A stretch of DNA of 64,000 nucleotides from Oscillospiraceae bacterium (GTDB taxonomy: Bacteria; Bacillota; Clostridia; Oscillospirales; Ruminococcaceae): positions 51,715 to 115,714 of the forward strand of contig JAFUIS010000021.1 in the NCBI GenBank assembly GCA_017468365.1. The letters are read 5' to 3'. The position numbers and the translations under genes are program-made. The notes below the pieces were generated by a model. It worked only from the letters and a program-made list of their open reading frames with translations. It had not been told where the DNA came from and did not search any database. This document shows, piece after piece, positions 3,372 through 40,426 of this stretch; position 1 is the stretch's first letter; every line of letters starts with the position of its first letter.

Positions 3372-3530
3372 AACGGACCACTTCCTTTCGCTTTTTCTAT
3401 TATAACTTAAAATCCTCTGCCAAATAAAGACATAATGTTAATTTTCCGCAAAAACCTCACCCGACACGGTAGTTTTCAAAACCGCAGGGAACGGTCTTGC
3501 TGTTCCGGTGACGGAGGCGATTTTTTCAAA

Positions 3531-3562
3531 AAAAGAGGCGCTTTAAAAAGCGCCTCTTTGCG
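3531..3562 (-). terminator. Terminator of the COG2509 flavoprotein gene
   Basis: GAGGCGCTTT / AAAGCGCCTC hairpin with A-run and T-run on its sides, directly downstream of the stop at 3573. The remaining DNA up to the M50 gene start (3563-3572 excluded) at 3372-3530 shows no gene that I can support. Confidence 0.85.
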
Positions 3563-3572
3563 GTTTGTGTGT

Positions 3573-4943
3573 TCAGTTTTTGGCAATCTCTCTTGCAACA
3601 AGAACGCCGGATGCGGATGCATGGGAAAGGGAATGGGTGATTCCGCTTCCGTCGCCGATGATATAAAGTCCGTCGTATTTTTTGCTCATAAGGTTTTCGT
3701 TGACCTCAACTTCCATGTTATAGAACTTGACCTCGACGCCGTAAAGAAGGGTGTCATCGTTGGCAGTGCCGGGGGCAACTTTGTCAAGGGCATAAATCAT
3801 CTCAACGATTCCGTCAAGAATTCTCTTCGGAAGAACAAGAGAAAGGTCGCCGGGAGTTGCGTTGAGGGTGGGGGTGATAAAAGCTCCGTCAATTCTGTCC
3901 TGGGTGGAACGGCGTCCGCGGATAAGGTCGCCGAAACGCTGAACGATAACGCCGCCGCCGAGCATGTTGGAAAGTCTTGCAATGCTTTCGCCATAGCCGT
4001 TGGAATCTTTGAAAGGTTCGGAAAAATGTTTTGCAACAAGAAGAGCAAAGTTGGTGTTTTCGGTCTGTTTTGCCGGGTCTTCATAGCTGTGGCCGTTAAC
4101 GGTGATGATTCCGTTGGTGTTTTCGTTAACAACGGCGCCCTTGGGGTTCATGCAGAAAGTGCGGACAAGGTCGCCGTATTCCTTGGTGCGGTAAACGATC
4201 TTGCTTTCATAAAGTTCGTCGGTAAGGTGAGAAAAAACCTCTGCCGGAAGTTCAACGCGAACGCCGATATCAACGCGGTTGGACTTGGTGGGGATACCCA
4301 TTTCCTTGCAAACTTTTTCCATCCATTTGCTTCCGCTTCTGCCAACGGAAACAATGCATTTTTTGCCGGTGTAAACTTCTTTTGCGGTTATAACTTTATA
4401 GCCGTTTTCGGTTGCCTCAACGGATTCAACGGGAGTGTTAAAGAAAAAGTCCACTCTGGTTTCAAGATATTTATAAATGTTTTCAAGGACGATATAGTTG
4501 ATGTCGGTTCCGAGATGACGAACGGAAGCATCGAGAAGGTGAAGGTCGTTCTGAATGCAAAGCTTTTTAAACTTGGTGCCCGCGGTGGAATAAAGCTTGG
4601 TGCCTTCGCCGCCGTAAGCCATGTTTATTTCGTCAACATAGCGCATAAGGTCAAGAGCCTGTTTTTTGCCGATATATTCATAAAGGGTGCCGCCAAAATC
4701 GTTGGTGATGTTGTATTTTCCGTCAGAAAAAGCGCCCGCACCGCCAAAACCGCTCATAATGGAACAGGTTTTGCAGCCAATGCAGCTTTTTATTTTTTCA
4801 CCGTCGATGGGGCAGCGGCGTTTTTCAAGGGAATGTCCCGCTTCAAAAACGGCAACTTTAAGTTCGGGAGAAAGCTTGGTAAGCTCGTAAGCGGAAAAAA
4901 TACCGCCGGGACCCGCACCGATTATAATAACGTCATAATTCAT
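3573..4943 (-). CDS. COG2509-type FAD-dependent dehydrogenase
   Basis: 456 residues. N-terminal Rossmann FAD motif (DVIIIGAGPGGIFSAYEL, residues 4-21). A conserved cysteine set follows near residues 43-65 (CPIDG...CIGCKTC), then GGAGAFSDGKY. Near the C-terminus LYIIGDGSGITHSLSHASASG is the second FAD-binding region. This Cys arrangement with FAD motifs is the mark of the COG2509 family of predicted oxidoreductases; substrate and physiological role are not established. ATG start with GGAGG upstream. Monocistronic: divergent from pepV and closed by its own terminator. Confidence 0.85.
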   Translation of the reverse strand: MNYDVIIIGAGPGGIFSAYELTKLSPELKVAVFEAGHSLEKRRCPIDGEKIKSCIGCKTCSIMSGFGGAGAFSDGKYNITNDFGGTLYEYIGKKQALDLMRYVDEINMAYGGEGTKLYSTAGTKFKKLCIQNDLHLLDASVRHLGTDINYIVLENIYKYLETRVDFFFNTPVESVEATENGYKVITAKEVYTGKKCIVSVGRSGSKWMEKVCKEMGIPTKSNRVDIGVRVELPAEVFSHLTDELYESKIVYRTKEYGDLVRTFCMNPKGAVVNENTNGIITVNGHSYEDPAKQTENTNFALLVAKHFSEPFKDSNGYGESIARLSNMLGGGVIVQRFGDLIRGRRSTQDRIDGAFITPTLNATPGDLSLVLPKRILDGIVEMIYALDKVAPGTANDDTLLYGVEVKFYNMEVEVNENLMSKKYDGLYIIGDGSGITHSLSHASASGVLVAREIAKN

Positions 4944-33320: not shown

Positions 33321-35498
33321 ATGAAAAAGATAATCTCTCTTATCCTTGTGGTTTCAATGGTTTTTTCCATGGGACTTTCCGTTTTTGCGGAAGAGGAATT
33401 CCCCGAACCCAATGTTGCAATTCAGGCCAACGGCGGCGAATTCAAAATTTATGAAGGAAATCCCGATAACGTATGGACCACTTCCGGCACCGGATTTATC
33501 CTTACTTCCGGAACGCTTGAATCCAACAACATTTATGTTTATGAAGACAGCATCAAATACTGGACTGAAAGAGAATTCCTCGGCTGGCTTGTTTATTCCG
33601 GCGTTGATTCCGCCGACCCCAACGAGGTAGTTACCTGGACTCTCACTTCCGAAACCCCCATATCCACCGATGCGATGCATAAATTCGATTTCACCGATTA
33701 TGACTACATCATGTTCGAGGCAAAATGGGAAGGAAACGACGAAGATTATTTCGTCGACGTCATGTTCGAAGCCGTCCCCGGAACCGTCTATCTTGAAGGC
33801 GCCGCAGAATACGTCGAAGCCTTCGGCCAGAGAGTAAGAAAAGGTCTTCCCCTTTCCGAAGAGGGAGTTAACATCGCTGACCCCGTAAGAGAAGGCGTCA
33901 CCGAAGAAACCAAATTCGAAGGCTGGATCCTTATCGACGAAGAGGGAAACAAAATCACTTCCGACGAAAACGGTTATATCCTTTATACCTCCGCCCAGAT
34001 AAACGCAATGACTGCTCCCGACAAAAACATGAGAGTTGCCGCAAAATGGGCAGATATCCCCTTTGAAGCTTATCTTAATCACGGAAACGGCGGCGAAGAA
34101 GGTCCCACAGGCGGTTCCGAAGAAGATGCAAACGTGATTTTCGATTGCTACGGCGGCCGCTTTATAATCGATTTCGGCAACAACGAAACCATGGACAGCG
34201 ATATGTTCTTTGCAAACGTTGCCCCCGGCGACAGAATTTCCGACAGCGGCGCAGCGATCCTTCCCGGATTCCCCGAAAGAGGAACCGGCTTTACCTTCGA
34301 AGGCTGGCTCGAATTCAATATGGATACCTGTGAATTTGTTTCTAGCACACCCATAACCGGAAACATCTTTGAAAGAGAAGCTCCGGATTACAAAGTCAGC
34401 TATATAGCAAAATGGGCCGAAATCGATTTTTCCCAGTATGTTTACGGCGAAAGCCATAACTTCGGAAAAGATAACAGAAACATCGGCTTTTATGCCAACG
34501 GCGGAAGAAACATCGATATCTGGATCGACGGCAGCGGCGAAAACCACGGCGGTTCTTCCAACATAACCCAGATAACTGTCGAAGACGGAAAGAGCCTTAA
34601 CGAGGCGGTTGCGGCAGACGGCTTTGTAACTGTCGATTTCATTCCCGTAAAAGACGGAATCCAGTCCAAAAGCTGGACCCTTGTAAAAGCGGATTCCGTA
34701 ACCTGGAAAGAACATATCCTCGGAACCGATTTTGTCCAGGGCGAAAACGATATCATCGTTTATAACGAAATTCTAGGCGCATACCAGCGTTATCTCGTTG
34801 CCGAAAACGCGGAAGTCCTTCCCCAGACTTTCCACAGCAAAGAAATTTTCAGAATCGCCGACGACAAGAGCTATTTCGCTATTGCAAACTGGAAACACCG
34901 GACCAAGATTGAAATCGACGGGACCAAACTCAATATTGTCGAGGACCTTGAACTCAAAGTTCCCGAAGGCCTTGAAAACAGATTCAAAGATACCGAGGAG
35001 ATAAAAGAAGAACTTGCGAACAGTGTTGTTCCCCATATCGGTTCCTTCTCTTCCGAACTGGGAGTGGTCTATCTTGAAATTTATCTTACCCGGACCACCG
35101 ATTCCGGCGAAGAACTTCCCGCAGAAGTTCCCGAAGGCGGACTTGAACTTACCCTCAGCTATCCTTACGGAACCGGAAGCAAAGGCTTCGACTTTGTCGT
35201 TGCCCACCTTCTCAATAACGGCGACGTTGAAATTTTCAGCGAGGAAAACGAAAACCTTACCCTCACCGATGAAGGCATTGTAATTAAAGTAAACAGCCTT
35301 TCTCCCTTCGCAATCTACTTTGCCGAAAACGGCGAAGCTCCTGATGAAGAAGACAATAGCAACAATAATAACAATAACAACAACCCCGGAAACGTAAACG
35401 GCGGTTACGAAAGCGGCGACAAAGTCGTTATCGACCTTTCCAAAAACAACGGGGAAGATGAAGAAAACCCCAACACCGGCGCTCCGGTTTTCTTCTGA
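33321..35498 (+). CDS. Large secreted protein with InlB-like repeats and a short sorting-like tail
   Basis: 725 residues. Sec signal peptide (1-24, cut after SVFA). Three or four modules of Gly/Asn-Gly-Gly strands ending in F.GWL...AKW (around 95, 160, 225, 300) resemble Listeria-Bacteroides (Flg_new/InlB B) repeats; the last third is a different beta-rich domain ending in SLSPFAIYFAENGE. Then an Asn-rich linker and the tail ENPNTGAPVFF. NPNTGAPV resembles the pre-anchor motif of many clostridial surface proteins, but the usual hydrophobic helix and basic end are missing. Expected to be secreted; role unknown. Confidence 0.75.
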   Translation: MKKIISLILVVSMVFSMGLSVFAEEEFPEPNVAIQANGGEFKIYEGNPDNVWTTSGTGFILTSGTLESNNIYVYEDSIKYWTEREFLGWLVYSGVDSADPNEVVTWTLTSETPISTDAMHKFDFTDYDYIMFEAKWEGNDEDYFVDVMFEAVPGTVYLEGAAEYVEAFGQRVRKGLPLSEEGVNIADPVREGVTEETKFEGWILIDEEGNKITSDENGYILYTSAQINAMTAPDKNMRVAAKWADIPFEAYLNHGNGGEEGPTGGSEEDANVIFDCYGGRFIIDFGNNETMDSDMFFANVAPGDRISDSGAAILPGFPERGTGFTFEGWLEFNMDTCEFVSSTPITGNIFEREAPDYKVSYIAKWAEIDFSQYVYGESHNFGKDNRNIGFYANGGRNIDIWIDGSGENHGGSSNITQITVEDGKSLNEAVAADGFVTVDFIPVKDGIQSKSWTLVKADSVTWKEHILGTDFVQGENDIIVYNEILGAYQRYLVAENAEVLPQTFHSKEIFRIADDKSYFAIANWKHRTKIEIDGTKLNIVEDLELKVPEGLENRFKDTEEIKEELANSVVPHIGSFSSELGVVYLEIYLTRTTDSGEELPAEVPEGGLELTLSYPYGTGSKGFDFVVAHLLNNGDVEIFSEENENLTLTDEGIVIKVNSLSPFAIYFAENGEAPDEEDNSNNNNNNNNPGNVNGGYESGDKVVIDLSKNNGEDEENPNTGAPVFF

Positions 35499-35518: not shown

Positions 35519-36214
35519 ATGTATTTTAAAAAATGGATTTCTGTTTTGATTGTGGCTTTTGCCCTTGTCTTTGCCTTTGCGGGCTGCCAAAATTCCGAAT
35601 CTGCCGAGCCGGAAAACGAAATTTCAGAAGTGCAGGAAGACCCGACGGACGAAGTTTTTAAAGACGAAGTTTCAAGCGAAGAGGTAAAGGAAAAAATAAT
35701 TTCCGCCCTTGAAGAAATCGAAGTGGATGCGGAAAGCATCGGCGGTTTTGAAAAAACCGAAGACGGAAACTATATCTTCACCTATATGGGAAAAGATTTC
35801 ACCGTCACCTTGGATGAAGATTCCGAGGTTTCTTCCGTAAGGCTTGAAGAATCCGGCGAGGACCTTTATCTCAAAGGTTACGAACCCTATAAGGCAGAAG
35901 ATTTTATGATGCCCGAATTCATGAAAAACCACCTCATCGAAATCATGAAAAATCTCACCGAGCTTGAATTCAATATGCCCGAAAGCATGGAATTCGACGA
36001 ATCCGCCTTTGCTTTCAGACATGAAGGCGATTATTATTACACCACCGGCACTGTAAAAATCAACGGCGGCGAAAAAGAACACACCGTCGAAATGACCTGT
36101 TCCTTTATTGATAACACCGTTGAGGCGCAGTTTTTCGCCGTTGACGGCAAAACTTCCATAAGCTTCACCAACAAAATTGTAAGACCCGAGCGTCAGGAAA
36201 TCGAAAATCCCTGA
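35519..36214 (+). CDS. Uncharacterised lipoprotein
   Basis: 231 residues. Signal with lipobox FAGC (Cys 23), then an acidic linker (residues 25-65) and a beta-rich domain (GNYIFTYMGKDFTVTLDEDSEVSSVRL) with a final module (YYYTTGTVKINGGEKEHTVEMTCSF). No catalytic motif seen. It lies 20 nt behind the large secreted protein, so the two are probably transcribed together and may act at the same surface. AGAGG precedes the ATG. Confidence 0.7.
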   Translation: MYFKKWISVLIVAFALVFAFAGCQNSESAEPENEISEVQEDPTDEVFKDEVSSEEVKEKIISALEEIEVDAESIGGFEKTEDGNYIFTYMGKDFTVTLDEDSEVSSVRLEESGEDLYLKGYEPYKAEDFMMPEFMKNHLIEIMKNLTELEFNMPESMEFDESAFAFRHEGDYYYTTGTVKINGGEKEHTVEMTCSFIDNTVEAQFFAVDGKTSISFTNKIVRPERQEIENP

Positions 36215-36306: not shown

Positions 36307-36335
36307 TTGACTTTCGCTCTTTAAAGCACTATAAT
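36307..36335 (+). promoter_or_regulatory. Promoter of the first binding-protein gene with a CTTTAAAG spacer element
   Basis: TTGACT (36307-36312), 17-nt spacer, TATAAT (36330-36335). A CTTTAAAG palindrome (36319-36326) lies three nt before the -10, at the same position as in the promoter at 37392. Confidence 0.75.
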
Positions 36336-36401: not shown

Positions 36402-37358
36402 ATGAAAAAACTCATAAGCATTCTTCTCGCCCTTGCAATGATGTTCAGCTTTGCCGCCTGCGGAAGCGAACCCGCAGCAAACGCAAAATATACCGTAGGA
36501 ATCTGCCAGCTCGTTCAGCACGAAGCCCTTGATGCCGCAACCCTCGGCTTCAAAGATGCCCTCACCGAAGCTTTCGGCGACGAAGTAGCTTTCATCGAAC
36601 ATAACGCTTCCGGCGATGCCGCAACCTGCATCACCATCTGCAACCAGCTTGTTTCCGAAGGCGTTGACCTCATCATGGGCAACGCGACCGCCGCTCTTCA
36701 GGCTGCCGCAGCCGCAACTTCCGATATCCCGATAGTCGGCACCTCTATAACCGACTATGCCACCGCCCTTGAAATCACCGATTGGACCGGCAAAACCGGA
36801 AGAAATATCACCGGAACCGCCGACCTTTCGCCTCTTGACCAGCAAACCGCAATGATCCCCGAACTTTTCCCCGATGCAAAGAAAGTCGGAATCCTCTATT
36901 GCTCTGCCGAGCCCAACTCCGTATATCAGGCTGACATCGTTGCCGAAGAACTTGCTTCTCTCGGCCTTGAAACCGAAGTATTCACCTTCGCCGATACCAA
37001 CGACGTAGCAAACGTTACCACCACCGCCTGCGCCGCTTCCGACGTTATCTATATCCCCACCGATAACACCGCCGCTTCCTGCGCAGAAACCATCGCCAAC
37101 GTAGCTATTCCCGCCGGCACCCCCATTATTTCCGGCGAAGAAAACGCCTGCAAAGGCTTTGGCGTCGCAACCCTTTCCATAAGCTACTATGACATCGGAT
37201 TCATTGCCGGTCAGATGGCTGCCGAGATTCTTGAAAACGGCGCAAACCCCGGCGAAATGGAAATTCAGTTTGCCCCGGAAACCGTTAAGAAATATAACGA
37301 AGCTATCTGCACCGAACTCGGAATCGAAGTTCCCGAAGGCTACGTAGCTATCGAATAA
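36402..37358 (+). CDS. ABC transporter substrate-binding lipoprotein (TrpX-like), copy 1
   Basis: 318 residues. Lipoprotein signal (lipobox FAAC, Cys 20), then the ABC_sub_bind (DUF534) fold: YTVGICQLVQHEALDAATLGFKDAL, NASGDAATCITICNQLVSEGVDLIMGNATAALQAA, VGTSITDY, KKVGILYCSAEPNSVYQ, YIPTDNTAASCAETIA. This family serves TrpXYZ-type importers predicted for aromatic amino acids. Very similar to the next gene, so a tandem duplicate. Own promoter, ribosome site GGAGG 10 nt before ATG. Confidence 0.88.
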   Translation: MKKLISILLALAMMFSFAACGSEPAANAKYTVGICQLVQHEALDAATLGFKDALTEAFGDEVAFIEHNASGDAATCITICNQLVSEGVDLIMGNATAALQAAAAATSDIPIVGTSITDYATALEITDWTGKTGRNITGTADLSPLDQQTAMIPELFPDAKKVGILYCSAEPNSVYQADIVAEELASLGLETEVFTFADTNDVANVTTTACAASDVIYIPTDNTAASCAETIANVAIPAGTPIISGEENACKGFGVATLSISYYDIGFIAGQMAAEILENGANPGEMEIQFAPETVKKYNEAICTELGIEVPEGYVAIE

Positions 37359-37391: not shown

Positions 37392-37420
37392 TTGACTTTA
37401 ACCCTTTAAAGTGCTATATT
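37392..37420 (+). promoter_or_regulatory. Promoter of the second binding-protein gene
   Basis: TTGACT (37392-37397), 17-nt spacer, TATATT (37415-37420), with CTTTAAAG (37404-37411) three nt before the -10 as in the first promoter. Confidence 0.75.
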
Positions 37421-37430
37421 TTTAAACAAC

Positions 37431-37637
37431 GAAAGCAAATTAAAGCAGAAAGGAATTTTAAGGCAATGAAAAACATGAAAGTCTTTGCAAAAGAATATTT
37501 CATGTTCGCTCGATTTATGGGCTATTATTGCCATGAAAAAATTCCTGAGGGCTTTTGGCCTCTGCATTTGATTTTTGCTTTCATCTGAAAAAAGCAAAGC
37601 AAGGCGGTTCCCAAATCCCGGGAATCGCTTTTTTGTT
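37431..37637 (+). ncRNA. Riboswitch-like leader with switching hairpins and terminator
   Basis: GAAAGCAAA (37431-37439) pairs with TTTGCTTTC (37574-37582) to close a structure that includes GCAG/CTGC, GGCAAT (37462-37467)/ATTGCC (37527-37532) and AACATGAAA/TTTCATGTT (about 37472-37506). The closing 3' strand can instead pair with AAAGCAAA (37591-37598), excluding the first helix. A terminator follows: GCGGTTCCC (37604-37612)/GGGAATCGC (37620-37628) and T6. It fits none of the riboswitch classes I know; a T-box is not supported (no clear stem I or TGG.ACC element). See the overlapping leader ORF for another reading. Confidence 0.6.
37466..37588 (+). CDS. Possible aromatic-rich leader peptide (40 aa)
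   Basis: ATG at 37466, TGA at 37586-37588. The peptide has seven Phe, three Tyr and one Trp among 40 residues (11 aromatics) and ends 13 nt before the terminator stem. A weak AGAAAGGA site lies 11 nt upstream. Position and composition recall leader peptides of ribosome-mediated attenuation for an aromatic amino acid importer. Equally, the frame may be chance inside a structured RNA, since much of it is base-paired. Confidence 0.4.
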   Translation: MKNMKVFAKEYFMFARFMGYYCHEKIPEGFWPLHLIFAFI

Positions 37638-37671
37638 TTAACTTTTTCAAAAAATTTTGGAGGAAATGAAA

Positions 37672-38637: not shown

Positions 38638-38694
38638 TTTCTGAAATACTGTTATTATATTAAGGTATATTAATTCTTGGAGGCAAATTTAATA

Positions 38695-39645
38695 ATGCTT
38701 GACATTAGTACTCTTTTAAACGCTTTTCCGGGCTATATTGCCCAGGGCGCAATTTGGGGAATAATGGCTCTTGGCCTGTACATTTCGTACAGGCTTTTGG
38801 AGTTTTCGGACCTTACTGTTGACGGTTCCTTTGCAACCGGCGCCGCTGTCACCGTAATGCTCATAATCATGGGCTGGCCTGCATGGGCGGCAATGATCGT
38901 TGCCGTTCTTGCCGGAATGCTTGCGGGACTTGTTACCGGACTTTTGCATACCGCCCTTGGCATCGCGCCTATCCTTGCCGGTATCCTCACCCAGATCGCT
39001 CTCTATTCCGTAAACCTTCATATCCTCGGCAACAAACCGAACCAGGCTGTTTCCGTCGATAAGTATGACCTCATCCTTTCCCTTCGTACCGTAAACGAAG
39101 CGATAGTAATCGCCCTTATTTTTGCGGCGGCACTTATCTGTGCTTTCTATTGGTTCTTCGGCACCGAAGCCGGTTCCGCTATCCGTGCAACCGGATGCAA
39201 CCCCGCAATGGCTAAGGCACAGGGTATCAACATTGATTTTTGCAAAGTTTTTGCCCTTGCGGTTTCCAACGGAATAGTTGCTCTTTCCGGCGGACTTCTT
39301 GCCCAGTACCAGGGCTTTGCCGACGTTGCAATCGGACGCGGCGCAATCGTAATCGGACTTGCTTCTATCATCATCGGCGAAGTTATTGCCGAAGCTCTTT
39401 TCAGCAAGCACATGAGCTTCTGGCTTTGCCTTTCTTCCGCAGTAATCGGCGGTATCCTTTATTACATTATCATGGGCGTTGTCCTTTGGCTCAAACTCCC
39501 CACCAACGATATGAAGCTTTTCACCGCTATCATCGTTGCAATCTTCCTTGCTGTTCCTTATCTTAAAAAGAACTTCAAAACTTCGTTCCTCCGCCTCAAA
39601 CTTGCGGAAAAGAAAAAAGCAAAGGAGGCGGCAAAGAATGCTTGA
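38695..39645 (+). CDS. ABC transporter permease (TrpY-like)
   Basis: 316 residues from the ATG at 38695 (GGAGG 12 nt upstream). About eight to nine membrane helices; motifs of the ABC_sub_bind-linked permease group: ALGLYISYRLLEFSDLTVDGSFATGAAV, LGNKPNQAVS, EAGSAIRATGCNPAMAKAQGI, SGGLLAQYQGFADVAIGRG. It is the single permease type, so works as a homodimer. Basic C-terminal tail; its last codons overlap the ATPase start by 8 nt. Confidence 0.9.
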   Translation: MLDISTLLNAFPGYIAQGAIWGIMALGLYISYRLLEFSDLTVDGSFATGAAVTVMLIIMGWPAWAAMIVAVLAGMLAGLVTGLLHTALGIAPILAGILTQIALYSVNLHILGNKPNQAVSVDKYDLILSLRTVNEAIVIALIFAAALICAFYWFFGTEAGSAIRATGCNPAMAKAQGINIDFCKVFALAVSNGIVALSGGLLAQYQGFADVAIGRGAIVIGLASIIIGEVIAEALFSKHMSFWLCLSSAVIGGILYYIIMGVVLWLKLPTNDMKLFTAIIVAIFLAVPYLKKNFKTSFLRLKLAEKKKAKEAAKNA

Positions 39646-40426
39646 TATAAAAGGCGTTTTCAAAACCTTCAACCCTGGTTCCATTACCGAAAAAAAGGCC
39701 CTTCAGGGAATCGACCTTCACCTCGAAGACGGCGACTTTGTAACCATCATCGGCGGTAACGGCGCAGGAAAATCCACCATGCTCAACGCAATCGCAGGTG
39801 TTTGGCCCGTTGACGAAGGCAGCATTTTTATCGACGGAAAAGACGTCACCGCAATGCCCGAACACAAAAGAGCTTCTCTTCTCGGCCGTGTTTTCCAGGA
39901 TCCCATGACCGGCACCGCCGCAAATATGCAGATCGAAGAAAACCTTGCCCTTGCCGCAAGAAGAGGCAAAAAACGCGGTCTCGGCTGGGAAGTTACCAAA
40001 GCCGAGCGCGAAAAATATCATGATATGCTCGTTTCCCTCGACCTGGGACTCGAAGATCGCCTTTCCGCAAAAGTAGGCCTTCTTTCCGGCGGTCAGCGCC
40101 AGGCTCTTACCCTTATGATGGCAACCATGGTAAAACCCAAGCTCCTTCTTCTTGACGAACACACCGCGGCTCTTGACCCCAAGACCGCCGCAAAAGTTCT
40201 CGAAATCACCGATAAGGCCATAAGCGAAAACAAGCTTACCGCACTTATGGTAACTCATAACATGAACGACGCCATTAAACACGGCAACCGCCTTATCATG
40301 ATGAACGAAGGAAAAATCGTTTATGACGTTTCCGGCGAAGAGAAAAAGAACCTCACCGTCGAAGACCTCATGAAAAAATTCAGCGAATTGGGCGGACATT
40401 TTTCCGACCGCGCTCTCCTCGGATAA
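39638..40426 (+). CDS. ABC transporter ATPase (TrpZ-like)
   Basis: 262 residues from the ATG at 39638 (AAAGGAGG 9 nt upstream; an extension to 39536 is inside the permease gene). Walker A GGNGAGKSTMLNA, Q-loop RVFQDPMTGTA, signature LSGGQRQALTLMMA, Walker B KLLLLDEHTAALD and His MVTHNMNDA. The DEHTAALDP form is typical of this importer family. Powers the importer of the two upstream binding proteins. Last gene before a terminator. Confidence 0.92.
   Translation: MLDIKGVFKTFNPGSITEKKALQGIDLHLEDGDFVTIIGGNGAGKSTMLNAIAGVWPVDEGSIFIDGKDVTAMPEHKRASLLGRVFQDPMTGTAANMQIEENLALAARRGKKRGLGWEVTKAEREKYHDMLVSLDLGLEDRLSAKVGLLSGGQRQALTLMMATMVKPKLLLLDEHTAALDPKTAAKVLEITDKAISENKLTALMVTHNMNDAIKHGNRLIMMNEGKIVYDVSGEEKKNLTVEDLMKKFSELGGHFSDRALLG

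Follow-up and report, generated by a model that had tools for sequence, protein, structure and literature searches.

The locus analysed here raises the question of how an ABC importer operon of an Oscillospiraceae bacterium is controlled by the leader preceding it, and which amino acid this leader senses. In the window, which denotes the whole 64,000-nt stretch of DNA that was analysed (genome G000, contig C16; genome size 1.86 Mb), a promoter and an approximately 215-nt leader are located between the genes of two substrate-binding proteins, SBP1 and SBP2, the latter of which is followed by the genes of a permease and an ATPase (Table 1). The leader acts, with a probability of about 0.78, as a ribosome-mediated transcription attenuator which reads the supply of tyrosine (possibly of tyrosine and phenylalanine) and controls a putative tyrosine importer. 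Its sequence contains a leader ORF with a Shine-Dalgarno (SD) sequence, Tyr/Phe regulatory codons, and an antiterminator and a terminator excluding each other. SBP1 has only a short 5′ UTR, in which no attenuator comparable to the SBP2 leader was seen. Two predicted proteins of the region (33321–35498, 725 aa; 35519–36214, 231 aa) have no Pfam match at E ≤ 0.001.

Table 1. Coordinates of the genes, signals and predicted RNA elements in the window
Feature	Position	Strand	Basis or remark
Weaker operator-like copy in the SBP1 promoter, ACTTTCGCTCTTTAAAGCA	36310–36328	+	Pattern search
SBP1, upstream paralogue of SBP2, ABC_sub_bind (PF04392)	36402–37358	+	73% identical to SBP2
Promoter: −35 TTGACT (37392–37397), 17-nt spacer, −10 TATATT (37415–37420)	37392–37420	+	Sequence
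HisR/TrpR-family operator-like palindrome ACTTTA-N6-TAAAGTG in the promoter	37395–37413	+	Pattern search
P1 5′ strand, long-range helix with 37574–37582, putative anti-antiterminator	37431–37439	+	Fold
SD of the leader ORF, AAGGA	37450–37454	+	Sequence
P2, SD/start region (37451–37469) with ORF end (37525–37546), closing H0 and H1	37451–37546	+	MFE fold
Leader ORF, 40 codons in the window, 11 aromatic residues	37466–37588	+	
H0, hairpin within the ORF, 37472–37480 with 37498–37506	37472–37506	+	Fold
H1, hairpin within the ORF, GCUC/GGGC, loop GAUUUAU	37508–37522	+	
Antiterminator 5′ strand, GGGCUUUUGG .. CUGC, pairing with 37604–37607 and 37610–37619	37549–37565	+	
Upper antiterminator hairpin; its 5′ arm doubles as P1 3′ strand	37567–37600	+	Fold
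Intrinsic terminator, stem 37604–37612 with 37620–37628, U-run 37629–37634	37601–37634	+	
SD of the SBP2 gene, GGAGG	37659–37663	+	Invariant in the genus alignment
SBP2, ABC_sub_bind (PF04392); carries Glu and Tyr at the Tyr-site positions	37666 or 37672 (start) to 38637	+	
Permease, BPD_transp_2	38677–39645	+	
ATPase, ABC_tran	39638–40426	+	

When the leader DNA was searched against 100 genomes (the window genome, 14 other members of its genus and 85 genomes outside the genus), full-length homologues of 73–83% identity were found in 12 of the 14 other genus members, while none of the 85 genomes outside the genus gave a full-length match. SBP2 lies directly downstream of the leader in all 12 leader-bearing relatives, followed by the permease and ATPase genes, and SBP1 or its end lies upstream in ten of them (exceptions, G002 and G004). 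In G006 (L046; G006:C161, ~3450–3661), the SBP2 promoter, operator and ribosome site are kept and the leader is gone; judging by what this locus retains, it is a natural deletion of the attenuator. The SBP2 homologue of G011 is preceded by a different leader. The leader alignments described below contain 13 sequences (the window and 12 relatives), G006 having been dropped after the first alignment and G011 never having been included. When a leader-peptide profile was run against 297 genomes of the family, E-values below 1e-10 were confined to the three genomes among them that belong to the genus and bear the leader, the next best value being 0.009; a contig scan with a single N-terminal peptide pattern gave eight loci, all in Oscillospiraceae MAGs, seven of which are titled as goat, sheep, deer or buffalo gut samples. 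No Rfam 15 family matches the leader above its gathering threshold, all matches being far below; Phe_leader (RF01859), which resembles it in attenuator type only, scores 19.3 bits (gathering 55; E 0.98) and is no match. A T-box, which the preliminary description of this DNA had not seen either, is rejected for the leader and the window operon, as RF00230 gives no match even at E ≤ 10, as against 12 matches elsewhere in the same genome.

The leader ORF is found in all 13 sequences, with a purine-rich SD before it in the aligned relatives, so that its conservation, the absence of which would have spoken against the preliminary description, extends to all 12 relatives as a shared core of ~25 codons with 6–8 Tyr/Phe and no Trp. 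The 40 codons and 11 aromatic residues reported at first hold for the window only: the relatives' ORFs have 27–31 codons (consensus of the 12 relatives, MKNMKVFxKEYFMYRxARFMSAYCRxKxS), and the TGA at 37546–37548 of the window, which equals their stop, is out of frame, so its last ~13 codons are species-specific. Of the 11 aromatic residues, four fall into this tail (F30, W31, F37 and F39); they are unshared and include the only Trp. M1, N3, E10, Y11, F12, R18 and Y23 are invariant in 13/13 leader peptides, and the conserved Tyr/Phe codons are 11, 12, 14, 19 and 23 in the relatives' numbering. F19 is present in 12/13 leaders; in G007, codon 19 has changed from Phe (TTT) to Tyr (TAC) by two base changes with the aromatic residue retained, and codon 14 is Phe instead of Tyr in two species. 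The stop of the relatives' ORFs is kept while its codon and sequence context vary, which counts for an attenuator, and the only indel among the aligned ORF cores preserves the reading frame. Other counts are less favourable. Variable columns are distributed as 13/15/16 over the codon positions, which is no proof of coding and counts against the attenuator, and the NG86 dN/dS, which is 0.45 in frame and 0.80 and 0.47 when the frame is shifted, is not decisive for coding; RNA helices constrain the same bases as the codons. Phe and Tyr codons occur at about equal frequency, and the leaders of the window genus have no run of one codon, which is likewise unfavourable. The leader has no conserved His codon, His codons being found only in the window copy. 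The CGA Arg codon at 37511–37513, which lies within the H1 region, is the same in all 13 leaders.

The window leader folds with −73.6 kcal/mol, as compared with a mean of −46.9 for its shuffles (z −5.9; 0/200 shuffles as good). The promoter with its 17-nt spacer, the long-range helix P1 and the competing strand at 37591–37598 are present exactly where the preliminary description had drawn them, and its terminator is correctly placed but not perfect, one of the nine stem pairs being G-U. Its idea of competing helices is also borne out, but the element predicted to exclude the terminator is the antiterminator strand of Table 1 and not 37591–37598. This strand starts 1–8 nt past the relatives' stop codon, and its post-stop bases AGGC-UUUUGG..CUGC pair with the GCGG and loop of the terminator (CCAAAAACC), the duplex being capped by the upper hairpin. 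The duplex is predicted in 13/13 species (−10.2 to −17.7 kcal/mol, as compared with a mean of −8.5 for shuffled partners), where its pairing and that of the intrinsic terminator are mutually exclusive, and it is the MFE fold of the isolated segment in 10/13 (exceptions, G004, G007 and G009). A classical four-strand trp layout with H1 as an antiterminator strand was rejected, as the post-stop strand fits better on the sequences alone.

Each helix was further evaluated by comparing its own partner strand with those of the other species (5000 permutations; relatedness uncorrected). The native partner is better in 13/13 species for the terminator (p < 0.0002), in 10/13 for the antiterminator base (native −15.25 vs cross-species −13.88; p = 0.0004) and in 11/13 for P2 (p = 0.016), while for P1 it beats the mean cross-species partner in 9/13 (p = 0.008). 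H1 also prefers its native partner (p < 0.0002), and in four sequences (G004, G007, G009 and G012, by their letters) both members of H1 pairs have changed; the compensating base changes for which the preliminary description had asked are thus present. The preference is weak for H0 (p = 0.06), and the upper antiterminator hairpin has no covariation support (p = 0.67). H1 is possibly a pause hairpin. Its loop sequence GAUUUAU recurs in the loop of the antiterminator hairpin in 4/13 species (G010, G005, G004 and G007; L007, L015, L016 and L013, respectively), and H1 itself is without this loop in G007.

In the proposed mechanism, a ribosome would stall at the leader Tyr codons when charged tRNA-Tyr is scarce, leaving the antiterminator strand free to pair with the 5′ arm of the terminator, so that the importer genes would be transcribed. 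With plentiful tyrosine, the ribosome would reach the stop codon, the antiterminator would be lost or weakened and transcription would end; in the window, where the ORF is longer, the translating ribosome would run across the antiterminator strand. If the leader is not translated, termination may be favoured by helix P1 too. Folding was also modelled with the RNA under a ribosome masked, the edge of the ribosome being assumed to lie 13 nt past the start of the A site. The entire antiterminator stays available with the ribosome at the Tyr codons, and with the ribosome at the stop codon the antiterminator strand of the window is lost; across the species, the antiterminator base is removed by a ribosome at the stop codon, yet the terminator GCGG is still paired in 12/13, which speaks against the attenuator. 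RNA cut before the terminator 3′ arm forms mostly the antiterminator in 7/13 species but P1 or another fold in six, and when the full-length RNA is folded at equilibrium the terminator wins in all 13 species for each ribosome position that was scored; both results are also unfavourable. When the RNA extends 8 nt into the terminator 3′ arm, a stalled ribosome holds the terminator probability at ≤0.3 in 7/13 species and not in six. In these models any switching would have to be kinetic, since at equilibrium the full-length RNA adopts the terminator in 13/13 and only a partial effect is seen at 8 nt of the 3′ arm.

The solved structure closest in sequence to SBP2 is CD0873 (6HNI), which is described as binding tyrosine, with Glu-263 and Tyr-279 setting its selectivity (PMC6816091), and Glu-249 and Tyr-265 of SBP2 align with these two residues. 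The Glu/Tyr pair is also present in SBP1, in 9/9 homologues whose Tyr leaders are unlike that of the window and in 7/7 homologues with UAC T-boxes. However, it is found in 37/38 other homologues and in several with UUC T-boxes as well, so the signature describes the group and not the leader, and this breadth weighs against the attenuator. In alignments of 33–43% identity, which may be off, the T-box homologues are mixed at this site, with Glu in three of four having UUC and in the one having UGG, while six without a settled specifier have Y, Y, A, Y, S and E. The importer is otherwise recognised only as ABC_sub_bind/TrpX-like, SBP2 scoring 231 bits against NF041285 (TrpX), below the cut-off of 390 bits.

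To survey the leaders of homologous importers, the regions upstream of 138 SBP2 homologues (31 + 107) were used, these being the higher-scoring places among the matches listed. Among these, Tyr-containing ORFs with an SD precede L049, L212, L213, L192, L182, L140, L144, L093 and L104. L049, from G011, contains a run of six Tyr (...SHRYYYYYYAF...), L212 a run of seven (MKRISVHYYYYYYYISAMERPSIN) and L213 a run of six, while L140, L182 and L192 have Tyr-rich leaders; these Tyr leaders differ from that of the window and come with terminators. ORFs with at least four Tyr in 12 codons are found in 6/138 upstream regions among the matches listed (reversed sequences, 1; shuffles, mean 0.3 and maximum 2), and those with at least five in 5/138 (reversed, 1; shuffles, mean 0.1 and maximum 1). 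The number of independent cases is lower, as L212 and L213 are alike and come from one family. By a crude shuffle test for an antiterminator, L104, L192 and L212 are supported, L213 is borderline and the other five of the nine are negative, and none of 27 class-level upstream regions (27 of 38 places) has a convincing Tyr leader, which tells against the attenuator. Trp-rich ORFs are found in 0/138 regions among the matches listed at both thresholds. Sensing of tryptophan is thus rejected, since the sole Trp codon belongs to the window-only tail and Trp-rich leaders are not above shuffles, and the amino acid sensed is most likely tyrosine, perhaps with phenylalanine.

A T-box motif precedes 16/138 homologues among the matches listed, by a regular-expression count which failed to pick up at least one further case, L051, and the earlier statement that such importers are normally under T-box control in Firmicutes is therefore too strong here. 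The specifiers of ten T-boxes before homologues were read by eye from covariance alignments: seven read UAC (L098, L171, L188, L195, L196, L210 and L211, with L195 and L210 less certain), three read UUC (L176, L216 and L222) and none reads His. The 12 T-boxes of the window genome include those of pheS (UUC), tyrS (UAC) and a trpB-like gene (UGG), the genes being recognised from translations by eye, and a paralogous importer of the same genome (contig C8; L047:7185–7425) has a T-box with the Phe specifier UUC upstream. An importer of G011 (L051) is preceded by a T-box reading UGG.

The SBP2 promoter carries a putative HisR/TrpR-family operator, ACTTTAACCCTTTAAAGTG, a candidate target of a TrpR-family protein. 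It fits cacTTTAnnnnnnTAAAgtg, given as the HisR consensus of most Firmicutes lineages in PMC9413887, and 12/12 positions are matched when our own reduced half-sites (ACTTTA/TAAAGT) are used. The promoter segment TTGACTTT..TTTAAAG is kept in 14/14 aligned genus sequences, G006 among them. Half-site scores of at least 11 are found in 11/165 upstream regions among the matches listed, as compared with a shuffle mean of 0.4, while none of the 16 T-box-preceded homologues among these matches reaches 10. An operator of this consensus and a TrpR-family protein (PF01371) are thus both found in the genome, the only such protein being of the YerC/YecD type. Control of the SBP2 importer is probably dual, by repressor and attenuator, because the promoter carries this HisR/TrpR-type operator.

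The main rival to a tyrosine attenuator is the same device sensing phenylalanine or both aromatic acids, which overlaps with the preferred reading and which we consider unlikely. The window leader has Phe and Tyr codons in equal frequency, F12 and F19 are as conserved as described above and 3/10 homologue T-boxes read UUC; moreover, the Corynebacterium glutamicum AroR peptide, with Phe-Tyr-Phe, is reported to respond to Phe only (PMC11802643). The runs in homologous leaders (L049, L212 and L213) are, however, of Tyr, SBP2 has the Tyr-selective Glu and the majority of T-boxes read UAC. Less probable still is a TnaC-like arrest, in which the nascent peptide KEYFMY..ARF...Y would stall the ribosome on free tyrosine instead of through codon starvation. 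The invariance of the peptide beyond Tyr/Phe (N3, E10 and R18 in 13/13) is what such a peptide would predict, but part of it is explained for N3 and R18, as their codons are in or beside H0 and H1, and the Tyr leaders of other genera are without this peptide.

A metabolite riboswitch with an incidental ORF, i.e. the new aptamer that the preliminary description had set beside a ribosome-read leader peptide, would account for the strong fold, for the several helices preferring native partners and for the weak substitution evidence of coding. We regard it as very improbable: start and stop of the ORF are kept, its core has only an in-frame indel and Tyr-rich ORFs recur upstream of homologues. No Rfam family matches, though a new class would be absent from Rfam. 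The aptamer is not required, because the ORF, the Tyr codons and the antiterminator explain the leader anatomy, and the leader peptide is the half of that earlier choice which stands. Slightest of all are the chances of a histidine signal acting through the HisR-type operator, with the leader merely a constitutive partial terminator. Its half-sites in the promoter match the HisR consensus perfectly, and DNA binding by HisR of Ruminococcus gnavus is described as requiring histidine (PMC9413887), but a conserved His codon is missing from the leader and the homologue T-boxes specify Tyr or Phe, with His in 0/10 read. The tyrosine-reading attenuator is thus the explanation retained in the following.

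Leader-peptide attenuation is textbook knowledge in Proteobacteria, and the trp operon of Escherichia coli is controlled by both the TrpR repressor and the ribosome-mediated trpL attenuator. To our knowledge, it has seldom been described in Firmicutes, where tRNA-sensing T-boxes are usual. Like the trp operon, whose trpL attenuation is described in PMC11802643, the window locus encodes a putative leader peptide whose codons include those of the regulated amino acid, is predicted to form either an antiterminator or a terminator, and has a putative TrpR-family-type promoter operator; unlike it, the leader contains Tyr/Phe codons, precedes an importer and not biosynthesis genes, belongs to Clostridia and has a Firmicutes HisR-type operator, and no sequence relationship between the two is apparent. 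The aroR leader of C. glutamicum resembles it in the aromatic codons serving as ribosome stalling sites (in the window leader, as proposed), but it answers to Phe and not to Tyr, precedes the DAHP synthase gene aroF and is actinobacterial, according to the account in PMC11802643. Histidine leader-peptide attenuators of Firmicutes, some of which replace T-boxes, share runs of the regulated amino acid but have His codons and are described for the hisS family and his operons (PMC2965389; PMC9413887). The trpXYZ operon of Streptococcus suis encodes an ABC importer of this kind with control at a terminator in the leader, but there by a tRNA-sensing, Trp-specific T-box (PMC9382623), to which the window leader has no match. 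The mechanism is of a known kind, since the nearest systems described are aroR and the Firmicutes His leader peptides, while what is new lies in the amino acid, in the target and in the pairing with an operator of TrpR-family type; among the papers listed in searches of the open-access literature, none on a tyrosine attenuator or leader peptide was found. We incline slightly towards the broader view that tyrosine importers of gut Oscillospirales are under a Tyr-specific ribosome-read attenuator and a HisR/TrpR-family operator, convergent with the dual control of E. coli trp, that homologues have swapped freely among Tyr T-box, Tyr leader peptide and operator alone, and that this would be the first Tyr-responding leader-peptide attenuator. 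Because one amino acid appears to be read by a T-box before some homologous importers and by a leader peptide before others, it becomes possible to test how such sensors are exchanged in evolution. Reading the leader would also assign a substrate, tyrosine, to the importer; in one clostridium of the gut, the uptake of tyrosine has been connected with the formation of p-cresol (PMC6816091).

A second conserved leader ORF (M..PS...RHRH*) was observed in the window genome (L265/L269; G000:C20:8086–8279), where a perfect HisR-type operator is followed by this ORF and then by an SBP_bac_3 importer gene. RHRH* ends the ORF in 12/12 readable genus loci of 13, L281 being the unreadable one, and this leader is possibly a His leader for a putative His importer. 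In the window genome's own copy, both Arg residues of RHRH are encoded by CGA, the codon also found in the H1 region of the SBP2 leader.
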